DNA from: Bacteroidales bacterium
GTDB lineage: Bacteria; Bacteroidota; Bacteroidia; Bacteroidales; F082
DNA length: 46,852 bases
Reading direction: 5' to 3'
Assembly: GCA_017428285.1 (NCBI GenBank)
Contig: JAFRRE010000114.1
Location: 1 to 46,852, forward strand
Both the position numbers and the translations under genes were made by a program. Shown here one piece after another: positions 1,373-33,325 of this stretch; position 1 is the stretch's first letter, and the number at the start of each line of letters is the position of its first letter. The notes under the pieces were generated by a model. That model did no database searches and had not been told where the DNA came from. It saw only the letters and a list, made by a program, of their open reading frames with translations.

Positions 1373-3913
1373 TTATTCCTTACCGTCATCATGCATCTTG
1401 CTCACATGATTGCTAGAGTGAAGATGGTGATGGTGTTTCTTCTTGAAGATACGTTGATACCACTTCTTCTTCTTATGTTCTTCTTCATCACCATAGCCGT
1501 AGCCATATTCGCTGCCATAACCGTAGCCGTAACCGTAGCCGTAACCGTAGCCGTAACCATAACCATAATAGCCATAGCCACGTCTCTTCTTATTTACGCC
1601 ATTCAGAATTACGCAAATATTAGGATAAGTCTTGTCTTTATAGAATTTATCCACATCGAAGAGCAATCGCTTATCCGCCTTACCTGCCCTCAGCACCATG
1701 ATTGTAGTATCTGCCACGCGCTTCACAATGTCAGAGTCGGCTACCATACCCACAGGAACGTTATCCAAGAAGATATACTCATAACGTTTGCGTAGTTCAG
1801 CCATCATATCCTCCAAACGCGTGCTCATCAGCAACTCAGCAGGATTGGGTGGCACCGGGCCCGAGAAGATGATGTCGAGACCAGGAGTATTGACATCGGA
1901 ATGAATAATGTCGTCAATCGAATCGGTTTTACCAGACAGATAGTTGGAGACACCCGCTTTGGTAGAAACATCGAACACTTTGAACAAGGTACCCTTACGG
2001 ATATCCAAGTCAACCAGCACAGTCTTTCTCTTTGCCAAAGCGAAACTGGTGGCCAAATTGGTGGAGATAAATGTCTTTCCTGAAGAAACCATGAACGAGG
2101 TGAACATGATAGCATGGGCTCCTTCTTTCCTGTCTTTCATATACTCCAAACTAGATCGGATAAGTCGGAACGACTCGGAAAGTGAATCTCGGCCATTCTC
2201 ACGCACCCTGATGGCATATCCCTGCATATCCTTCTCAAACGGCACATCTCCAAGGAAGGGAACATTGGAAGCCTTTTGCACGTCCACCCTGTCATGAATT
2301 GTCGTATCAAGTAAATTCTTAAGTATCAAAATGACAATCGGAACAGCCAGACCAATAAGAATACCAATTATTGTCGATCTTCGTTCGTCTGGTGCAACTG
2401 GCGTGTAATAAGGATGTGCATAGTCAATCACTTTACCTGTAGCTTCCAGTTGGGGACTTGTCATCAGCAGCTCCTCACGCTTGGTTAGCAGCTGCAAATA
2501 AAGGCTTTCCTTGATGCCTTGCATACGCTCGACTGAGCCCAATTCCAACTGGGCAACAGGAACACTTTGGATTTGGGAATTGGCAATGTTCCGATCACGA
2601 TTTGCAGCATCGATACGATCTTCCAAACCTTGCAGATTGATCTCGAGAACTGCGACAATGCTGGCATGGAGATTCACCTGTTCTTCCATTAAATTCTGGG
2701 CAACCGGGTTATTGATCGTACCATCAGCCTTATATTTCTCAATTTTGACCAGGTTGTCATTGTATGTGTTGATAAGTGTAGAAGCCTCGGATGATACAGT
2801 AACCGCACCAATAGGAATCATCTGGTCTGTATTGTTCTTGGTAAAATTGAGCAGATATCGCACCATATCAGCTTGGGCATCCAACTTTTTCGCTTCTTCC
2901 GTCAATGCCGTACTGGCTGCCATATAGGCCTGACCATAGCTCTTCGTATCAATGATATTATGACTACGCTTGAAATCGACAAACACTTTTTCGTTTTCAT
3001 TGATGTCATTCATCAAATACTCGATACGTTCATTGATAAAATTCTCTGTATAGTCGAGCACACGTTGCTGGTCATCAATGGACTCTTGGTTATACACCTC
3101 CATCAAAGTGTTGAGCACATCAGCAGCGCGTAAAGGTGAGGTGTCGCTAACTGAAAGCCTCAGGACTGCATTACCTGCATTTTCCCTTCTCACAGAGATG
3201 CGTCCACGATAGATTGAAGCTACCGTCGAAATCGGACGATGGTTGACCGTAATGGCTACATCATAAAAGTCACCATATCGCCATGTAGGCTTCACAACAA
3301 CCTTGCCAACTGGAGATATTACGGTATCATTCAGGCGCACCGTCATTGCAGGAATATCGCCACCAAAATCATCAAGAACAACATGTTCCTTATCGACCGG
3401 CTTCACACTGAAAGAGGCTTTGGCCTGTTCATCCATCTCAGGAAAAACGACTTCAATTGGCGAATCCTTATAGAGATCCCTGTTACGCTTTGAGACTTTT
3501 GTCTTATAGGAATATGAAACATTCAGGTTCAATTCGCGCACCATACTTTCCATAATCGACTGAGAGGTCAAAACCATCATCTCATTGTTGATGGTGCTAA
3601 CAACAGGGCCACCTCCAAGGCTACCCAGCGCTGTAGAAGCACGAAGCGATTCCGAACCGCTGCTTGTCAACGAACTCTTAATCAGAATGGTCGCACTACT
3701 TGCATATATCCGTTCTTGCTTGCTGACGATGTAGTAAGCAACAACACCACCAATCAAAGCGCAAATGACAAACCAATGCAGGTTGCGCAATACCAGAAAG
3801 ACCAAATCCTTGAACTTAAAGCCGCTATTGGCGCTTTCATCAAAAAAAGTATTAATGTCTTCTGGCCTCTTGTTCGCGTTGTTGATATCGTTGGGATTGT
3901 TGTTAGTTGCCAT
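1373..3913 (-). CDS. Wzc-like polysaccharide co-polymerase with C-terminal BY-kinase
   Basis: This 846-residue inner-membrane protein has the Wzz/PCP-2a architecture. One membrane segment is at about 45-64, a long periplasmic coiled-coil region follows, a second membrane segment is at about 513-531, and a cytoplasmic tyrosine kinase completes it. Walker A is SSGKTF (610-615, similar to the Wzc-type variant), Walker A' is VLVDLDIRKG (632-641) and the Walker B-like segment is YIFLDN (713-718). The tail (780-807) is an extreme Gly-Tyr alternation, the presumed autophosphorylation cluster, followed by a Lys/His-rich end. It should control chain length and couple assembly to the OPX pore encoded just upstream. 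The phosphatase gene follows after 10 bp. The tail is encoded by in-frame 12-bp tandem repeats. Confidence 0.93.
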   Translation of the reverse strand: MATNNNPNDINNANKRPEDINTFFDESANSGFKFKDLVFLVLRNLHWFVICALIGGVVAYYIVSKQERIYASSATILIKSSLTSSGSESLRASTALGSLGGGPVVSTINNEMMVLTSQSIMESMVRELNLNVSYSYKTKVSKRNRDLYKDSPIEVVFPEMDEQAKASFSVKPVDKEHVVLDDFGGDIPAMTVRLNDTVISPVGKVVVKPTWRYGDFYDVAITVNHRPISTVASIYRGRISVRRENAGNAVLRLSVSDTSPLRAADVLNTLMEVYNQESIDDQQRVLDYTENFINERIEYLMNDINENEKVFVDFKRSHNIIDTKSYGQAYMAASTALTEEAKKLDAQADMVRYLLNFTKNNTDQMIPIGAVTVSSEASTLINTYNDNLVKIEKYKADGTINNPVAQNLMEEQVNLHASIVAVLEINLQGLEDRIDAANRDRNIANSQIQSVPVAQLELGSVERMQGIKESLYLQLLTKREELLMTSPQLEATGKVIDYAHPYYTPVAPDERRSTIIGILIGLAVPIVILILKNLLDTTIHDRVDVQKASNVPFLGDVPFEKDMQGYAIRVRENGRDSLSESFRLIRSSLEYMKDRKEGAHAIMFTSFMVSSGKTFISTNLATSFALAKRKTVLVDLDIRKGTLFKVFDVSTKAGVSNYLSGKTDSIDDIIHSDVNTPGLDIIFSGPVPPNPAELLMSTRLEDMMAELRKRYEYIFLDNVPVGMVADSDIVKRVADTTIMVLRAGKADKRLLFDVDKFYKDKTYPNICVILNGVNKKRRGYGYYGYGYGYGYGYGYGYGYGSEYGYGYGDEEEHKKKKWYQRIFKKKHHHHLHSSNHVSKMHDDGKE
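1521..1556. repeat. Three perfect 12-bp tandem repeats encoding the kinase Gly-Tyr tail
   Basis: The unit CCGTAGCCGTAA occurs three times without change (1521-1532, 1533-1544, 1545-1556), with degenerate copies on both sides across about 1497-1581. Each unit encodes four residues of alternating Tyr and Gly on the minus strand, so gain or loss of units keeps the reading frame. Confidence 0.85.
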
Positions 3914-3981
3914 AATAATATGTTGTTTAGATATATGGAGAGAATCCTTATAATTATTTAATGAAAAAACATTGCGTTAAA

Positions 3982-4791
3982 TCACCAAGTCCAATTTTCG
4001 AACAGTTTATAAAGTGTGACAACAGATACTGCCGAGGTAACCAAGCCAGTGATTGACGAAATGAAACCAAGAACCGTATTCAAATTGGCATTGAAGAACT
4101 TGTACGGGCGTTCCTCGGTGAAAATGATGTCATTCTGTTGAAGCACAAAAAACTCATCATTGAAAATATCTGTGGAACGAGGATCAAGATAATGTATCAC
4201 ACGTCTGCCATCCACTTCTCGCATTACCCCAATACGGTCACGTCGGGTATACCAGTCCAAACCACCAGCCAAAGCCAAGGCTTCAAGGAAGGTGCAACGC
4301 TCATTGGGAACATTGATCACCTTGCCGCCTGAACTGGATAACAAAAATATTTTAAAATTCAAGAAACGAGCTATCACAAAGGGGTCTTTAAGCTGTCCAT
4401 TACGTATGAGCTGCGCAGCAATGGTATCTTGCAGCTGCAAGCGCGTTAAGCCTTCAACATGGAGCTCACCCAACACAGGGAACCGAATATTACCATCAGA
4501 ATCAACAAGATAACCCGACATGGAAGAACCGCCAAGGCCACTATTGCTTTGTCCCATAGATTGAACGGCATTAAAAGGCTTGAGCAATTCATCATCCTTT
4601 CCTGTATTACTCAAAACCATAATTCTCAACTCATCGAAAGGAGCCACTGTGGCTTCTAACGACTTATTGAGGGGCAAACCGTCCTTGGGCATATCCTGCA
4701 GGTAACGGACACTCTTCGGCGTGACACATGATGATGCCGAAACAGCCAGTATTACTAAGAGAAAATAAAAGATAATTCTATTTGTTTTCAT
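3982..4791 (-). CDS. Polysaccharide export outer-membrane lipoprotein (Wza-like OPX)
   Basis: Starting at the ATG at 4791, the protein is 269 residues with a lipoprotein signal peptide and a cysteine at residue 22 (context AVSASSC). A poly-export domain (APFDELRIMV) and an SLBB-like segment (VPNERCTFLEALALAGG) follow, and a hydrophobic C-terminal stretch around 239-260 would form the outer-membrane helix. It forms the outer-membrane exit channel partnered with the Wzc-like protein, whose gene starts 69 bp downstream. An upstream in-frame TTG at 4824 is rejected because it falls inside a promoter match at 4822-4829 and would give a poor signal peptide. At 269 residues it is shorter than E. coli Wza (about 380), as is common in Bacteroidota. 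Confidence 0.92.
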   Translation of the reverse strand: MKTNRIIFYFLLVILAVSASSCVTPKSVRYLQDMPKDGLPLNKSLEATVAPFDELRIMVLSNTGKDDELLKPFNAVQSMGQSNSGLGGSSMSGYLVDSDGNIRFPVLGELHVEGLTRLQLQDTIAAQLIRNGQLKDPFVIARFLNFKIFLLSSSGGKVINVPNERCTFLEALALAGGLDWYTRRDRIGVMREVDGRRVIHYLDPRSTDIFNDEFFVLQQNDIIFTEERPYKFFNANLNTVLGFISSITGLVTSAVSVVTLYKLFENWTW

Positions 4792-30429: not shown

Positions 30430-31605
30430 TTACCTCATTAACTGGCAAAAAGAGGCATCTTCCCAAAACCTTGGGTACGATTTTTCTACCACTTCGGGAT
30501 GGTCGAAATGGACAGGGCCAACGAGCATCGATAACGGTGCCAAAGCCATCACGATGCGATGGTCGTTGTGAGCGCAAAAATGCACGGGATGTTGACTCAA
30601 TTTCGCCAATTCAGTTTGCATTGCCTCTACCCTATCTGATTCCTTAAGATGCAGATTATCAAGACCTAGAAACCTAGCTTCAAGGCCCAATCCTGCACAA
30701 GTGGCCGCCATGGTCGGATAGAGGTCGGGATGGGCTGAGAAATCAAAACAGAGCGGGCGTTTTTCAAAAGGTATTTTTCGTAGGACAACAACCATATCTT
30801 CAACAAAAGTTCCAACCCCCAATTGCCTCATCCAATCCACGATGACCACATCACCTTGTAGGCTAGAAGTCCCTGAGCCCTGAGCCTGTCGAAGGGTTGA
30901 AGGGCCGACCAATCCATGCAACCTGATTTTGCATTCCTCGCTCAATGCTGCCATTTCATACCAATAGGAAGCTGCACTCCAATCTGCCTCGATCTCAAAA
31001 TCCATTGAATGATAATGCTTTGGAAACACTTTTATCATCCTATCATTTTGCTCAATCTTTGCGCCAAAATGCCGCATCATGGTCAAGGTCATTTCGAGAT
31101 AGGGCAAAGAACTAAGTTCACCAATCAGTTCCATTTCAAGACCTTGTGGCCACATTGGAGCTGCCAAAAGCAAAGATGAGGCAAACTGACTGCTTTGACT
31201 CATGTCGACGGTGACTTTACCGCCTAAAATCGGCTTCCCAACAATTCGCAAAGGCATAGAGCCCTCTTTTTCAACATACTGGATATCTGCCCCTAGACCT
31301 CTCAATGCCTCCACTATAGGAACCATGGGGCGCTGCTTCATTCGCTCCGTGCCCGTCAAGAGCCAATCTCCTTCATGACACGCAAGATAAGTCGTTAGGA
31401 AACGCGCCGCCGTACCGCAGTCGGCGATGTCAATGAGGGTATTGCCAAGTCGGATTTCGTGCAAGGCATGGGCCAGACAGAGCGTGTCATTGGAGTCAGA
31501 AAGGTTCTGGAAATCAGGCGCGAAACCGCCATAGGCGGCAATCATCAAGGCGCGGTTGCTTTCGCTTTTGCTGGCAGGCAAATTAATGTCACAATGTAGT
31601 TTCAT
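30430..31605 (-). CDS. aroA: 3-phosphoshikimate 1-carboxyvinyltransferase (EPSP synthase)
   Basis: A 391-residue EPSP synthase of the shikimate pathway, forming EPSP from shikimate-3-phosphate and PEP in the cytoplasm. Conserved segments are LPASKSESNRALMIAA (Lys13, Arg18), DCGTAARFLTTYLA at 62-75, LTGTERMKQRPM at 83-94, EADWSAASYW at 206-215, SLQGD at 248-252 and LHLKESDRVEAM. It is shorter than most (about 430), as in Bacteroidota. Residues about 236-247 (STLRQAQGSGTS) interrupt the normal join between GLVGP and SLQGD and are encoded by a dispersed-type repeat. The ATG overlaps the aroB stop (ATGA at 31602-31605). Confidence 0.95.
   Translation of the reverse strand: MKLHCDINLPASKSESNRALMIAAYGGFAPDFQNLSDSNDTLCLAHALHEIRLGNTLIDIADCGTAARFLTTYLACHEGDWLLTGTERMKQRPMVPIVEALRGLGADIQYVEKEGSMPLRIVGKPILGGKVTVDMSQSSQFASSLLLAAPMWPQGLEMELIGELSSLPYLEMTLTMMRHFGAKIEQNDRMIKVFPKHYHSMDFEIEADWSAASYWYEMAALSEECKIRLHGLVGPSTLRQAQGSGTSSLQGDVVIVDWMRQLGVGTFVEDMVVVLRKIPFEKRPLCFDFSAHPDLYPTMAATCAGLGLEARFLGLDNLHLKESDRVEAMQTELAKLSQHPVHFCAHNDHRIVMALAPLSMLVGPVHFDHPEVVEKSYPRFWEDASFCQLMR
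30871..30896. repeat. CCCTTCGACAGGCTCAGGG-type repeat inserted in frame in aroA
   Basis: The plus strand holds CCCTGAGCCTGTCGAAGGG at 30878-30896, preceded by a second CCCTGAGC at 30871-30878. On the coding strand it encodes part of STLRQAQGSGTS, extra residues between two conserved EPSP synthase segments. Short sequences of this kind are known as dispersed repeats in many bacterial genomes. Confidence 0.75.
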
Positions 31606-32720
31606 CGGCGGGACAGGTTGATTATGTAGTGCAAAGCCGCTTTCACCAATTCCTCTTCAACATCAACACCCCACACTGGCATTCCAACTGCTTCAAGCAG
31701 AACGAATTGTGGGTTTTCTCCTTTGTTTTTCTTGTCGTGAACAAGATAACTCAAAATCGGCTCAATATCAGCTTCCGAAAGCGAGATTTCCGCTTCAGAA
31801 AGCAACATAGGCAACTTTGCCTCGTAGTCTTTCAGGACTTTTTCATCAAGGCAACATTGCTTAACGGATAGCCATAAAGCACCAACCATGCCCAATGCTA
31901 CCGCCTCTCCATGAAGCAAGGGATGATCCGTTGTTAAGCAATAGCTTTCGATGGCATGGCCCAGCGTATGTCCAAAGTTCATTATCTTGCGCAAGCCTTT
32001 TTCAGTCGGGTCTTTTGCCACAATGTCCCGTTTGATTTCACCACATCGAACGATATGCTGCTGATAGTTCTCCAAATTGACATTCAGTAAGTTGGCATCA
32101 GCAATAAAGCCGTATTTCAGCATTTCGGCCAAACCAGAATGGATTTCCCTTGGGGGCAGAGTCTCCAAGAAAACAGGATTGATCATCACATCTTCCGCCT
32201 CAGCGAAGGTGCCGATTTGGTTTTTCGCCCCACCGAAATCGATGCCCGTCTTCCCTCCTATCGCTGCATCAACCATAGCGAGCAATGTTGTCGGAACATT
32301 AATGAACTTGATACCGCGCTTGTAAGTAGAGGCTGCAAATCCACCCAAGTCGGTAATGGTTCCGCCCCCGAGGTTGATAAGCATAGCGTTACGGTCGGCA
32401 TGATGCTTCATCAAAGCTTTCCAAATGCGTTGAACAGTTTGCAGGTTTTTGTATTGTTCGCCCGCCTTGATAACAATCTCAATTGCCGAATCACAATGCA
32501 GCCAATGAGCCACTTCGGGTAGCCAAAACGGGGCTACATTCTCATCGGTGAGGATGAAGACTTGAGAGGTTTCAGAAAGCATAGATTCCAAGCTCCCCGC
32601 TACCCTCCGCAGGAATGACATGCTTTCTGAAGCCTTAGGATGCATGTCATTCCAAGGTTGGACAGTGCGCTGGCGGGAATCTATGCATTCTGAGGCTTGG
32701 TTCATTTTCAAATCACACAT
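31602..32720 (-). CDS. aroB: 3-dehydroquinate synthase with repeat-encoded N-terminal extension
   Basis: The 372-residue frame contains a full AroB core: FILTDENVAPFWLP, GGGTITDLGGFAASTYKRG, NVPTTLLAMVDAAIGGKTG, HSGLAEMLKYGFI and MNFGHTLGHAIE. The enzyme makes 3-dehydroquinate from DAHP using NAD and a metal ion. Recognisable family sequence begins only at about residue 48. Nearly everything before it (residues about 8-47) is encoded by two palindromic repeats at 32572-32698. Possible starts are ATG 32720 (overlapping the tsaE stop by 8 bp), 32705, or internal Met codons at 32645, 32621 or 32582. Which one is used decides whether the repeat is translated. Confidence 0.93.
   Translation of the reverse strand: MCDLKMNQASECIDSRQRTVQPWNDMHPKASESMSFLRRVAGSLESMLSETSQVFILTDENVAPFWLPEVAHWLHCDSAIEIVIKAGEQYKNLQTVQRIWKALMKHHADRNAMLINLGGGTITDLGGFAASTYKRGIKFINVPTTLLAMVDAAIGGKTGIDFGGAKNQIGTFAEAEDVMINPVFLETLPPREIHSGLAEMLKYGFIADANLLNVNLENYQQHIVRCGEIKRDIVAKDPTEKGLRKIMNFGHTLGHAIESYCLTTDHPLLHGEAVALGMVGALWLSVKQCCLDEKVLKDYEAKLPMLLSEAEISLSEADIEPILSYLVHDKKNKGENPQFVLLEAVGMPVWGVDVEEELVKAALHYIINLSRR
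32572..32630. repeat. Palindromic element A in the 5' coding region of aroB
   Basis: The 59-bp element starts TCAGAAAGCAT (32572-32582) and ends with its exact reverse complement ATGCTTTCTGA (32620-32630). The similarity continues inward: the two 18-19 base ends differ only by a few bases near the ATTCC block. It shares the blocks AGATTCC and GGAATGACATGC with element B, which abuts it. Confidence 0.85.
32630..32698. repeat. Palindromic element B in the 5' coding region of aroB
   Basis: The 69-bp element begins AAGCCTTAGGATGCATG (32630-32646) and ends CATGCATTC-like on the other arm, reading GCATTCTGAGGCTT at 32685-32698; the two 23-24 base arms are inverted copies with about five differences. 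The arms include the same CATTCC / GGAAT blocks as element A, so A and B are probably two copies of one family side by side. Confidence 0.85.
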
Positions 32721-33156
32721 TATCAGTAAGCAATTCGCAGGTAATCACTCGCTCATCATCCGTTTCACCATGCTGAATCTCAACGCGAATGTATTTTTCG
32801 GGCAAAAGTGGTTCAATCATTTCAGGCCACTCAATGAGGCAGAGGTTGCCGCTGTCGAAATAGTTCTCATAGCCTATGTCATAGGCCTCTTCCAACTTCT
32901 TAATACGATAGAAGTCAAAATGATAGACCGACTCACCTTCTTCCGTAACGTATTCATTTACAATGGCAAACGTCGGACTATTCACCTCGTCGGTGACACC
33001 CATTCTGTGACATAAGTTTTTGATTAGCGTAGTCTTGCCCGCACCCATTGACCCGTAGAACGCGATGATGTCGGCTTGATCACGCAGGGAAATCAAGTAT
33101 TCGGAGATTTCCGAGAGTTGCTCCACACCGCTAATATGGAATTCTTTGGAATTCAT
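32713..33156 (-). CDS. tsaE: tRNA threonylcarbamoyladenosine biosynthesis ATPase TsaE
   Basis: A 147-residue P-loop ATPase with Walker A YGSMGAGKTTL at 34-44, then VNSPTFAIVNEY, YHFDFYRIK, and CLIEWPEMIEPLLP, all standard TsaE segments. With TsaB, TsaD and TsaC it makes the essential t6A37 modification of tRNAs reading ANN codons. Length is normal. Its stop overlaps the first possible aroB start by 8 bp (ATGTGTGA), coupling it to the shikimate genes. A promoter candidate lies 20 bp upstream. Confidence 0.95.
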   Translation of the reverse strand: MNSKEFHISGVEQLSEISEYLISLRDQADIIAFYGSMGAGKTTLIKNLCHRMGVTDEVNSPTFAIVNEYVTEEGESVYHFDFYRIKKLEEAYDIGYENYFDSGNLCLIEWPEMIEPLLPEKYIRVEIQHGETDDERVITCELLTDNV

Positions 33157-33195: not shown

Positions 33196-33325
33196 GAGAT
33201 TCCCTTCGGGAATGGAAGACGGTTTGTTTTGTAAACCGCGGCGGCTTGTGGAGCCTACGCATAGTAAGCCCTACTTGCCGCCGCTGGAAACGTATAAAAG
33301 ATAATCCATTCCCGAAGGGAATCTC
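33196..33325. repeat. 130-bp nested inverted-repeat element between porX and tsaE
   Basis: A perfect 21-bp inverted repeat bounds the element (33196-33216 and 33305-33325). Each arm is itself a hairpin (ATTCCCTTCGGGAAT). Inside, GCGGCGGC (33238-33245) pairs with GCCGCCGC (33277-33284), and GGTTT/AAACC (33221-33237) makes a further small stem. There is no open frame of note. It starts 5 bp after the porX stop on the transcribed strand and could be a MITE-like element, a transcribed structured RNA, or a terminator-like structure. Confidence 0.8.

Follow-up and report, generated by a model that had tools for sequence, protein, structure and literature searches.

A dispersed palindromic element probably inserted in frame, as an inverted doublet, in the aroB gene of a Bacteroidales bacterium

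The aroB locus and its counterparts in relatives

The window, i.e., the whole 46,852-nucleotide stretch of DNA analysed here, carries aroB on its minus strand as an open reading frame (ORF) of 372 codons that stays open across two palindromic units, A and B, which account for nearly all the residues ahead of residue 44, where the HMM match begins. The features of the locus, with loci and genomes of relatives designated by L and G numbers, are as follows.

31602..32720, minus strand: aroB (3-dehydroquinate synthase) with the element-encoded N-terminal extension; ORF, TIGR01357 match (E 3e-96) over residues 44–359
32713..33156, minus strand: tsaE, the upstream neighbour, overlapping aroB; TIGR00150, E 1e-33
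32718..32720, minus strand: ATG matching the ancestral aroB start and overlapping the tsaE stop; aligned by eye with L176, L182, L183 and L193
32688..32696, minus strand: copy 1 of a possible direct duplication, GCCTCAGAA (native form in L193, GCCTCAAAA); by eye
32685..32699, no strand assigned: outer arm of B, pairing with 32629–32643
32644..32684, plus strand: core of element B (41 nt), reading IDS..NDM in aroB
32629..32643, no strand assigned: inner arm of B
32622..32636, no strand assigned: inner arm of A, overlapping the inner arm of B
32581..32621, minus strand: core of element A (41 nt), reading MSF..ESM in aroB
32566..32580, no strand assigned: outer arm of A, pairing with 32622–32636
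32562..32570, minus strand: copy 2 of the possible direct duplication, ACCTCTCAA (GCCTCCCAA in L182), after which comes native GTC TTC ATC; by eye

The cores of A and B both have the form ATGTCATTCC..GGAATCTAT and their starts are 63 nt apart. The original prediction placed two tandem palindromic elements in the region encoding the N-terminus of AroB, in a frame open as far as the tsaE stop; the two units and the open frame are indeed there (the ORF runs to 32720 and the tsaE stop lies at 32713), whereas the same orientation is not, the TGTC ends of the units facing each other as in an inverted pair. Taken together, A and B constitute one 122-nt inverted repeat (69% identity, BLAST E 1e-14) and peptides of the IDS..NDM and MSF..ESM types are encoded on both strands of the pair. 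RNA folding of 136 nt yielded −59.5 kcal/mol as compared to −37.2 ± 3.9 for 200 shuffled sequences, none of which was as good (z = −5.74), the z values of the single units being −3.81 (A) and −2.32 (B). The internal Met codons proposed as alternative starts (32645, 32621 and 32582) are in frame, and two more are found upstream, at 32720 and 32705, the latter being the start of P0001, the AroB of the window as called in the protein database, which begins MNQAS.

Further copies of A or B were detected neither by BLAST nor by a fuzzy scan of the window, and the copy number of the element was measured in the genomes of relatives, the nearest of which (G001) has 51% of the window's sampled words in common. 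The records of the nearest relatives are assigned to Bacteroidales or Bacteroidia; some come from yak abomasum or goat reticulum, and one (L024) is entitled uncultured Bacteroidia bacterium RUG11691, where RUG presumably denotes a rumen genome.

Other traits were observed in the same region. Between 31431 and 31665, covering the 5′ part of aroA and the 3′ end of aroB, the alignment to G001 (C2) breaks and the flanks are ~96% identical, a pattern like that of a recombination tract; near the aroB/aroA junction of the same genome (G001:C2:60494–60520, L153) the palindrome TCATTGCGGGCGCAGACCCGCAATCTC emerged as a by-product of the fuzzy scan. The gap between porX and tsaE (33196–33325) contains a palindromic element of another kind, GAGATTCCCTTCGGGAATGGA, whose 21-nt arms are perfectly inverted and stand 88 nt apart. 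Finally, AroA of the window (30430–31605) scores 244 bits as compared to an NCBIfam aroA cut-off of 287 and appears to be a rather divergent EPSP synthase.

The aroB set (n = 31) comprises the window and the best 30 loci of the 90 genomes with a match to the long form used as query; 14 loci have the doublet, two have a deletion scar and 15 have neither, the 14/31 not being a frequency since the loci were chosen for their likeness to that query. Alignment with close relatives therefore reveals AroB both with and without the elements, and instead of an ancient, conserved N-terminus devoid of other copies, what was found are relatives with an empty site and many copies of the family. Where the site is empty, as in L193, the gene starts with MSDKLKNIITEASKVF; in the filled loci L182 and L183 the ancestral start (MSDKLKQTMVQAS and MSDKLNQTMTQAP) is followed by the doublet and then by MLSKASQVF or ILSKASQVF. 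Compared to the empty L193, L182 and L183 have 126 nt (42 codons) extra, after which the native sequence resumes and, because these two relatives retain the empty-site start upstream of these 126 nt, the extension sits behind the ancestral start codon. The scar of L195 and L196 (MRKVMDMLSKASQVF) represents a loss that keeps the frame and is bounded by two TATG sequences present in L177. On the AroB tree the long form is patchy, with seven changes, at least four of which are forced by well-supported branches; such a distribution is not that of one simple vertical insertion and suggests that recombination or repeated loss took place.

A dispersed family and its copies within genes

The family was searched in 99 genomes of the same genus with the pattern TCATTCCN{12,34}GGAATCTA, the reversed pattern serving as control. 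The former was found in 48/99 genomes and the latter had 0 matches in 99/99; 26 of the 99 have 7–49 matches, G032 being left out since its 13 matches belong mostly to another loop type. The matched sequences were inspected for part of the genomes, including G001, G025 and G053 in full, and the flanks were read for 83 copies (23/23, 30/35 and 30/39 from these three genomes, respectively). In the 83 copies TCATTCC and GGAATCTA are separated by 19–26 nt, the stem ATTCC/GGAAT is conserved, and an open frame is present on each strand of the core in 80 cases. The 97 places of three genomes include 20 adjacent pairs less than 200 bp apart, 19 of which are inverted, with either the heads (7) or the tails (12) facing. 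Across the phylum a looser pattern matched 96 of 395 genomes, mostly a few times, and the matches listed have mostly other loops; since it picks up other palindromes phylum-wide, a match to the pattern is not enough to define the family. An apparent second subfamily, with ends ATAGATAC..GGTATGACAT (ATAGATGC..GGCATGACAT in L182/L183), is likewise in frame and partly nested, at L224 and L225 (MnmL), L266–L268 (BirA) and L182, L183 and L195 (aroA). In L107 there is a cluster of elements, with two ORFs listed.

The anticipated further in-frame copies were encountered in the genomes of relatives, where the element is abundant and several copies lie in frame within other genes. Stop-free ORFs of at least 250 aa harbour 28 of the 83 copies (in 26 genes, two of which hold two each), a genic copy being thus defined by the open frame, so that gene-breaking copies would be missed or count as non-genic. 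Of the random positions in the same loci, 926/1496 fall in such ORFs, so that the copies are under-represented (binomial p 2e-7, with kinship ignored and shared-site copies of related genomes counted as independent); since copies are rarer in ORFs than random positions, genes probably do not tolerate the majority of the insertions that they receive. Ten of the 28 ORFs were scanned with HMMs and in eight the alignment continues across the insert, these being aroA, prmC, mnmL/ytqA (MnmL/YtqA) twice, a GT4 glycosyltransferase, GH20, a polyprenyl synthetase and BirA; as to the remaining two, only the pre-insert one of two EamA stretches was placed and the TopB insert is outside the part covered by the HMM.

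Orthologous loci were taken as the best 30 of the 92, 94, 92 and 90 genomes with a match for MnmL (plus L085), PrmC, BirA and aroB/aroA, respectively. Filled sites amount to 21/31 in MnmL, 16/30 in PrmC, 4/30 in BirA and 20/31 in aroA and every one of them is stop-free through the insert (21/21, 16/16, 4/4 and 20/20), the frames through the PrmC sites being open even though several PrmC matches were scored with one TAA. Single units add 51–66 nt in MnmL, PrmC and BirA and 39–63 nt, mostly 48, in aroA, lengths that are bound to be multiples of three, both anchors having been sought in one frame; none of the loci examined failed the anchors. In PrmC L240–L242, L245 and L246 one element is nested in the loop of a second one and the frame is maintained. 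Overall, the copies elsewhere occupy recurrent sites in either orientation, are sometimes nested, and have relatives with an empty site. A universal insertion quantum of 63 nt, which is both the aroB spacing and the commonest MnmL increment (11/21), was considered and discarded, other increments being 51–66 nt and those of aroA mostly 48.

As regards core length modulo 3, genic and other copies compare as 23/28 vs 14/55, a contrast that is circular for minus-sense copies owing to the open-frame definition, and the plus-sense genic copies compare with the others as 8/13 vs 14/55 (p = 0.02). Of the minus-strand frames, the one that genes use most often is open in 23/28 genic and 20/55 other copies (33.5 when shuffled); since the non-genic copies have it open less often than shuffled ones, this frame is not open by design.

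Arms, cores and the AroB extension

The arms differ from copy to copy and yet remain complementary, their mean score being 8.57 as compared to 1.41 (maximum 1.97 in 200 rounds) when the right flanks are swapped. At the MnmL site, where 18 of the 21 filled loci contain a simple unit, yielding 16 distinct arm pairs, and the three nested copies were left out, 167 of 192 arm positions are paired vs 139.5 ± 4.6 with shuffled partners, a value equalled in 0/5000 shuffles, and two or three pair types occur at five of the first 12 positions; these covariation shuffles ignore relatedness, and shared descent inflates tests of this type. At the aroA site the cores are found in both orientations, six reading MSF and 14 reading IDS. 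L177 and L185 have in common the 14-nt arms AAGCTTTAGTAAGC (left) and GCATACTAAAGCTT (right), down to an asymmetric mismatch, and yet their cores are in opposite orientations; the two cores are 82% identical after turning one of them, the between-locus background being 62% ± 9% and 4% of the background pairs reaching 0.80. Ten other flip pairs (0.59–0.82 identity) offer weaker support, 14% of the background pairs reaching 0.72. Covarying arms and core inversion would both fit template switching during replication.

Constraint on the extension was evaluated on the 14 long forms, over the last 45 codons before VFILTD, with bootstrap over codons. The dN/dS ratio is 0.44 for the extension vs 0.10 for the body of the enzyme, and the pN/pS ratio of the extension is 0.49 (bootstrap 0.33–0.73) in the coding frame, the two alternative frames giving 1.29 and 0.91. 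Thus, the extension behaves like a weakly constrained protein, part of whose codon signal could be mimicked by hairpin pairing or gene conversion. Its synonymous difference is low compared to that of the body (pS 0.24 vs 0.64) and the extension may therefore have spread by recombination, or else be younger than the body or conserved as DNA. In an AlphaFold model of AroB (mean pLDDT 60.5) residues 1–44 are below 50, and because residues 118–185 of the enzyme are equally so, the model says nothing about the extension.

Origin of the extension and comparison with known palindromes

Judging from the sequences of the relatives, the cell most likely produces AroB together with the N-terminal extension, which it would tolerate. 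Between the two outcomes originally envisaged, namely a repeat-encoded extension of about 40 residues or a start at an internal Met, the former is favored by the ancestral start found upstream of the insert in L182 and L183 and by substitutions that are protein-like in the coding frame only. According to the latter, the elements would in effect be an extragenic 5′ leader, with AroB starting at 32582 (MLSETSQ) or 32621 and the frame upstream being incidental. The AroB HMM match, which begins only at residue 44, the position of Met 32582 seven codons ahead of the first conserved strand and a warning that REPs in N-terminal coding regions are possibly misannotated (PMC3733652) would agree with such a leader, which is nevertheless rather improbable, given that the ancestral start MSDKL.. 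is intact and in frame in L182/L183, that the codon bias of the extension is present in the coding frame and absent from the other two, that the database proteins of relatives contain the extension, and that the same family lies in frame within domains of other genes. A more remote prospect is that the extension be an adaptive part of AroB, selected for regulation or for binding a partner; a dN/dS below 1 (0.44) and the retention of the extension in 14/31 loci are compatible with this role, which appears very unlikely in view of a constraint much weaker than that of the body, the precise in-frame loss in L195/L196, the 15/31 aroB loci devoid of an extension and the similar peptides found in unrelated proteins.

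As to mobility, the element might be a REP/MITE mobilised by a host Y1 (RAYT) transposase, Y1_Tnp genes being present in 8/8 high-copy genomes, and also in 5/8 of the zero-copy genomes tested. However, no element was found within ~1.5 kb of Y1_Tnp in the 20 loci examined out of 44 matches (12 of the 26 in high-copy genomes), the single fuzzy match near such a gene has three substitutions and belongs to a zero-copy genome (L156), and the CGTC REPs, as described in PMC3733652, lack a dedicated transposase; mobilisation by Y1 is held to be unlikely. A search of Rfam with window positions 32400–32900 gave no match at E ≤ 1.

The reading that we consider highly probable is that a dispersed palindromic element was inserted in frame in aroB as an inverted doublet, that the resulting extension is tolerated and that template switching edits arms and core. 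The doublet would have entered aroB behind codon ~13, adding 126 nt without a stop or a frameshift, perhaps with a short, 9-nt direct duplication (GCYTCNNAA in aroB and GCYTTRGAA in MnmL, by eye, with a third site in aroA L204). Inserts that keep the frame would survive within genes, helped by cores whose frames are open on both strands (80/83). Furthermore, a polymerase switching template within the hairpin would rewrite one arm from the sequence of the other, thereby keeping the arms complementary, and could invert the core. For AroB the extension would be a selfish and near-neutral addition. A bolder extension of this scheme, which we put forward only tentatively, is that the turnover of the core within a host gene (arm rewriting, inversion, nesting and deletion), with the protein left unbroken, continually supplies core enzymes with in-frame peptide inserts at fixed sites. 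Since the same sites occur filled, empty, flipped, nested or scarred within one species-rich gut genus, there is the opportunity to watch inserts arise, get edited and vanish, and to ask if bacterial proteins are shaped by template switching.

Rickettsia is the best-known case of palindromes inserted in frame within genes. The likeness to the Rickettsia palindromic elements (RPEs) suggested at the outset holds for behaviour, that is for dispersal and in-frame insertion, and does not extend to formal membership; the element works like an RPE, and the sequence feature compared with the RPEs is the ATGAC motif, as described in PMC3767692. In Rickettsia, RPEs are found as in-frame insertions within genes (PMC10969869, PMC3767692), and RPE-4, RPE-6 and RPE-7 have ATGAC in common and occupy the same loci of orthologues (PMC3767692). 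Similarly, the element described here is a short palindrome lying in frame in unrelated housekeeping genes (as judged from their gene families), is dispersed and multicopy, strikes the same orthologous loci in different versions and contains the ATGAC motif, here GGAATGACAT. On the other hand, the RPEs reported belong to Rickettsia and Wolbachia and measure 100–150 bp, whereas the present units are shorter, belong to a Bacteroidales genus and consist of cores of ~38–45 nt plus copy-specific arms; moreover, the core inversion and arm covariation seen here are not among the RPE properties described in the passages of PMC3767692 and PMC10969869 consulted. The two latter traits recall the inverted repeats of yeast coding DNA, in which template switching results in arm homogenisation and spacer inversion (PMC8604942), and stems can be preserved through template switching (PMC8794818); the yeast repeats, however, are short sequences belonging to the genes proper and not a dispersed inserted element. 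Among the matches listed from the open-licence literature (titles and beginnings of abstracts), no paper on such elements in Bacteroidales or Bacteroidetes was found.

A relationship can also be drawn with the CGTC-type REPs, to which RPE-4 and RPE-6 have been assigned and which occur in five phyla including Bacteroidetes, with intragenic REPs in several species, e.g., O. terrae and Thioalkalivibrio (PMC3733652, Di Nocera 2013). As described there, these have in common with the present element the motif (T/C)GTCATTCC..GGAAT, also (T)GTCATTCC..GGAATGAC, AT at the base of the stem, frequent dimers in opposite orientation, those of the CGTC-type REPs being predominantly head to head, some intragenic copies and no known transposase; likewise, the CGTC/TGTC tag is found here as TGTC in both window cores and in most of the listed flanks of the 83 copies. 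In the same description the tail is mostly CCA, unlike the CTA of both window units; since the search pattern requires CTA, this comparison concerns the window units, the other copies being no test of the tail. Unlike the stem of 8–9 bp and loop of 4–5 bp by which the CGTC-type REPs are defined, here 5 bp (ATTCC/GGAAT) enclose 19–26 nt, and RNA folding of unit A alone yields extra inner pairs and still an 8-nt loop. Another palindrome, CCGTCATTCCGGACTTGATCCGGAATC.., separates tsaE from aroB at L030 (~3821–4018) and L031 (~3834–4030), loci that seem to be identical with L186 and L188; aroB is there without the doublet and this palindrome looks like a CGTC-type REP.
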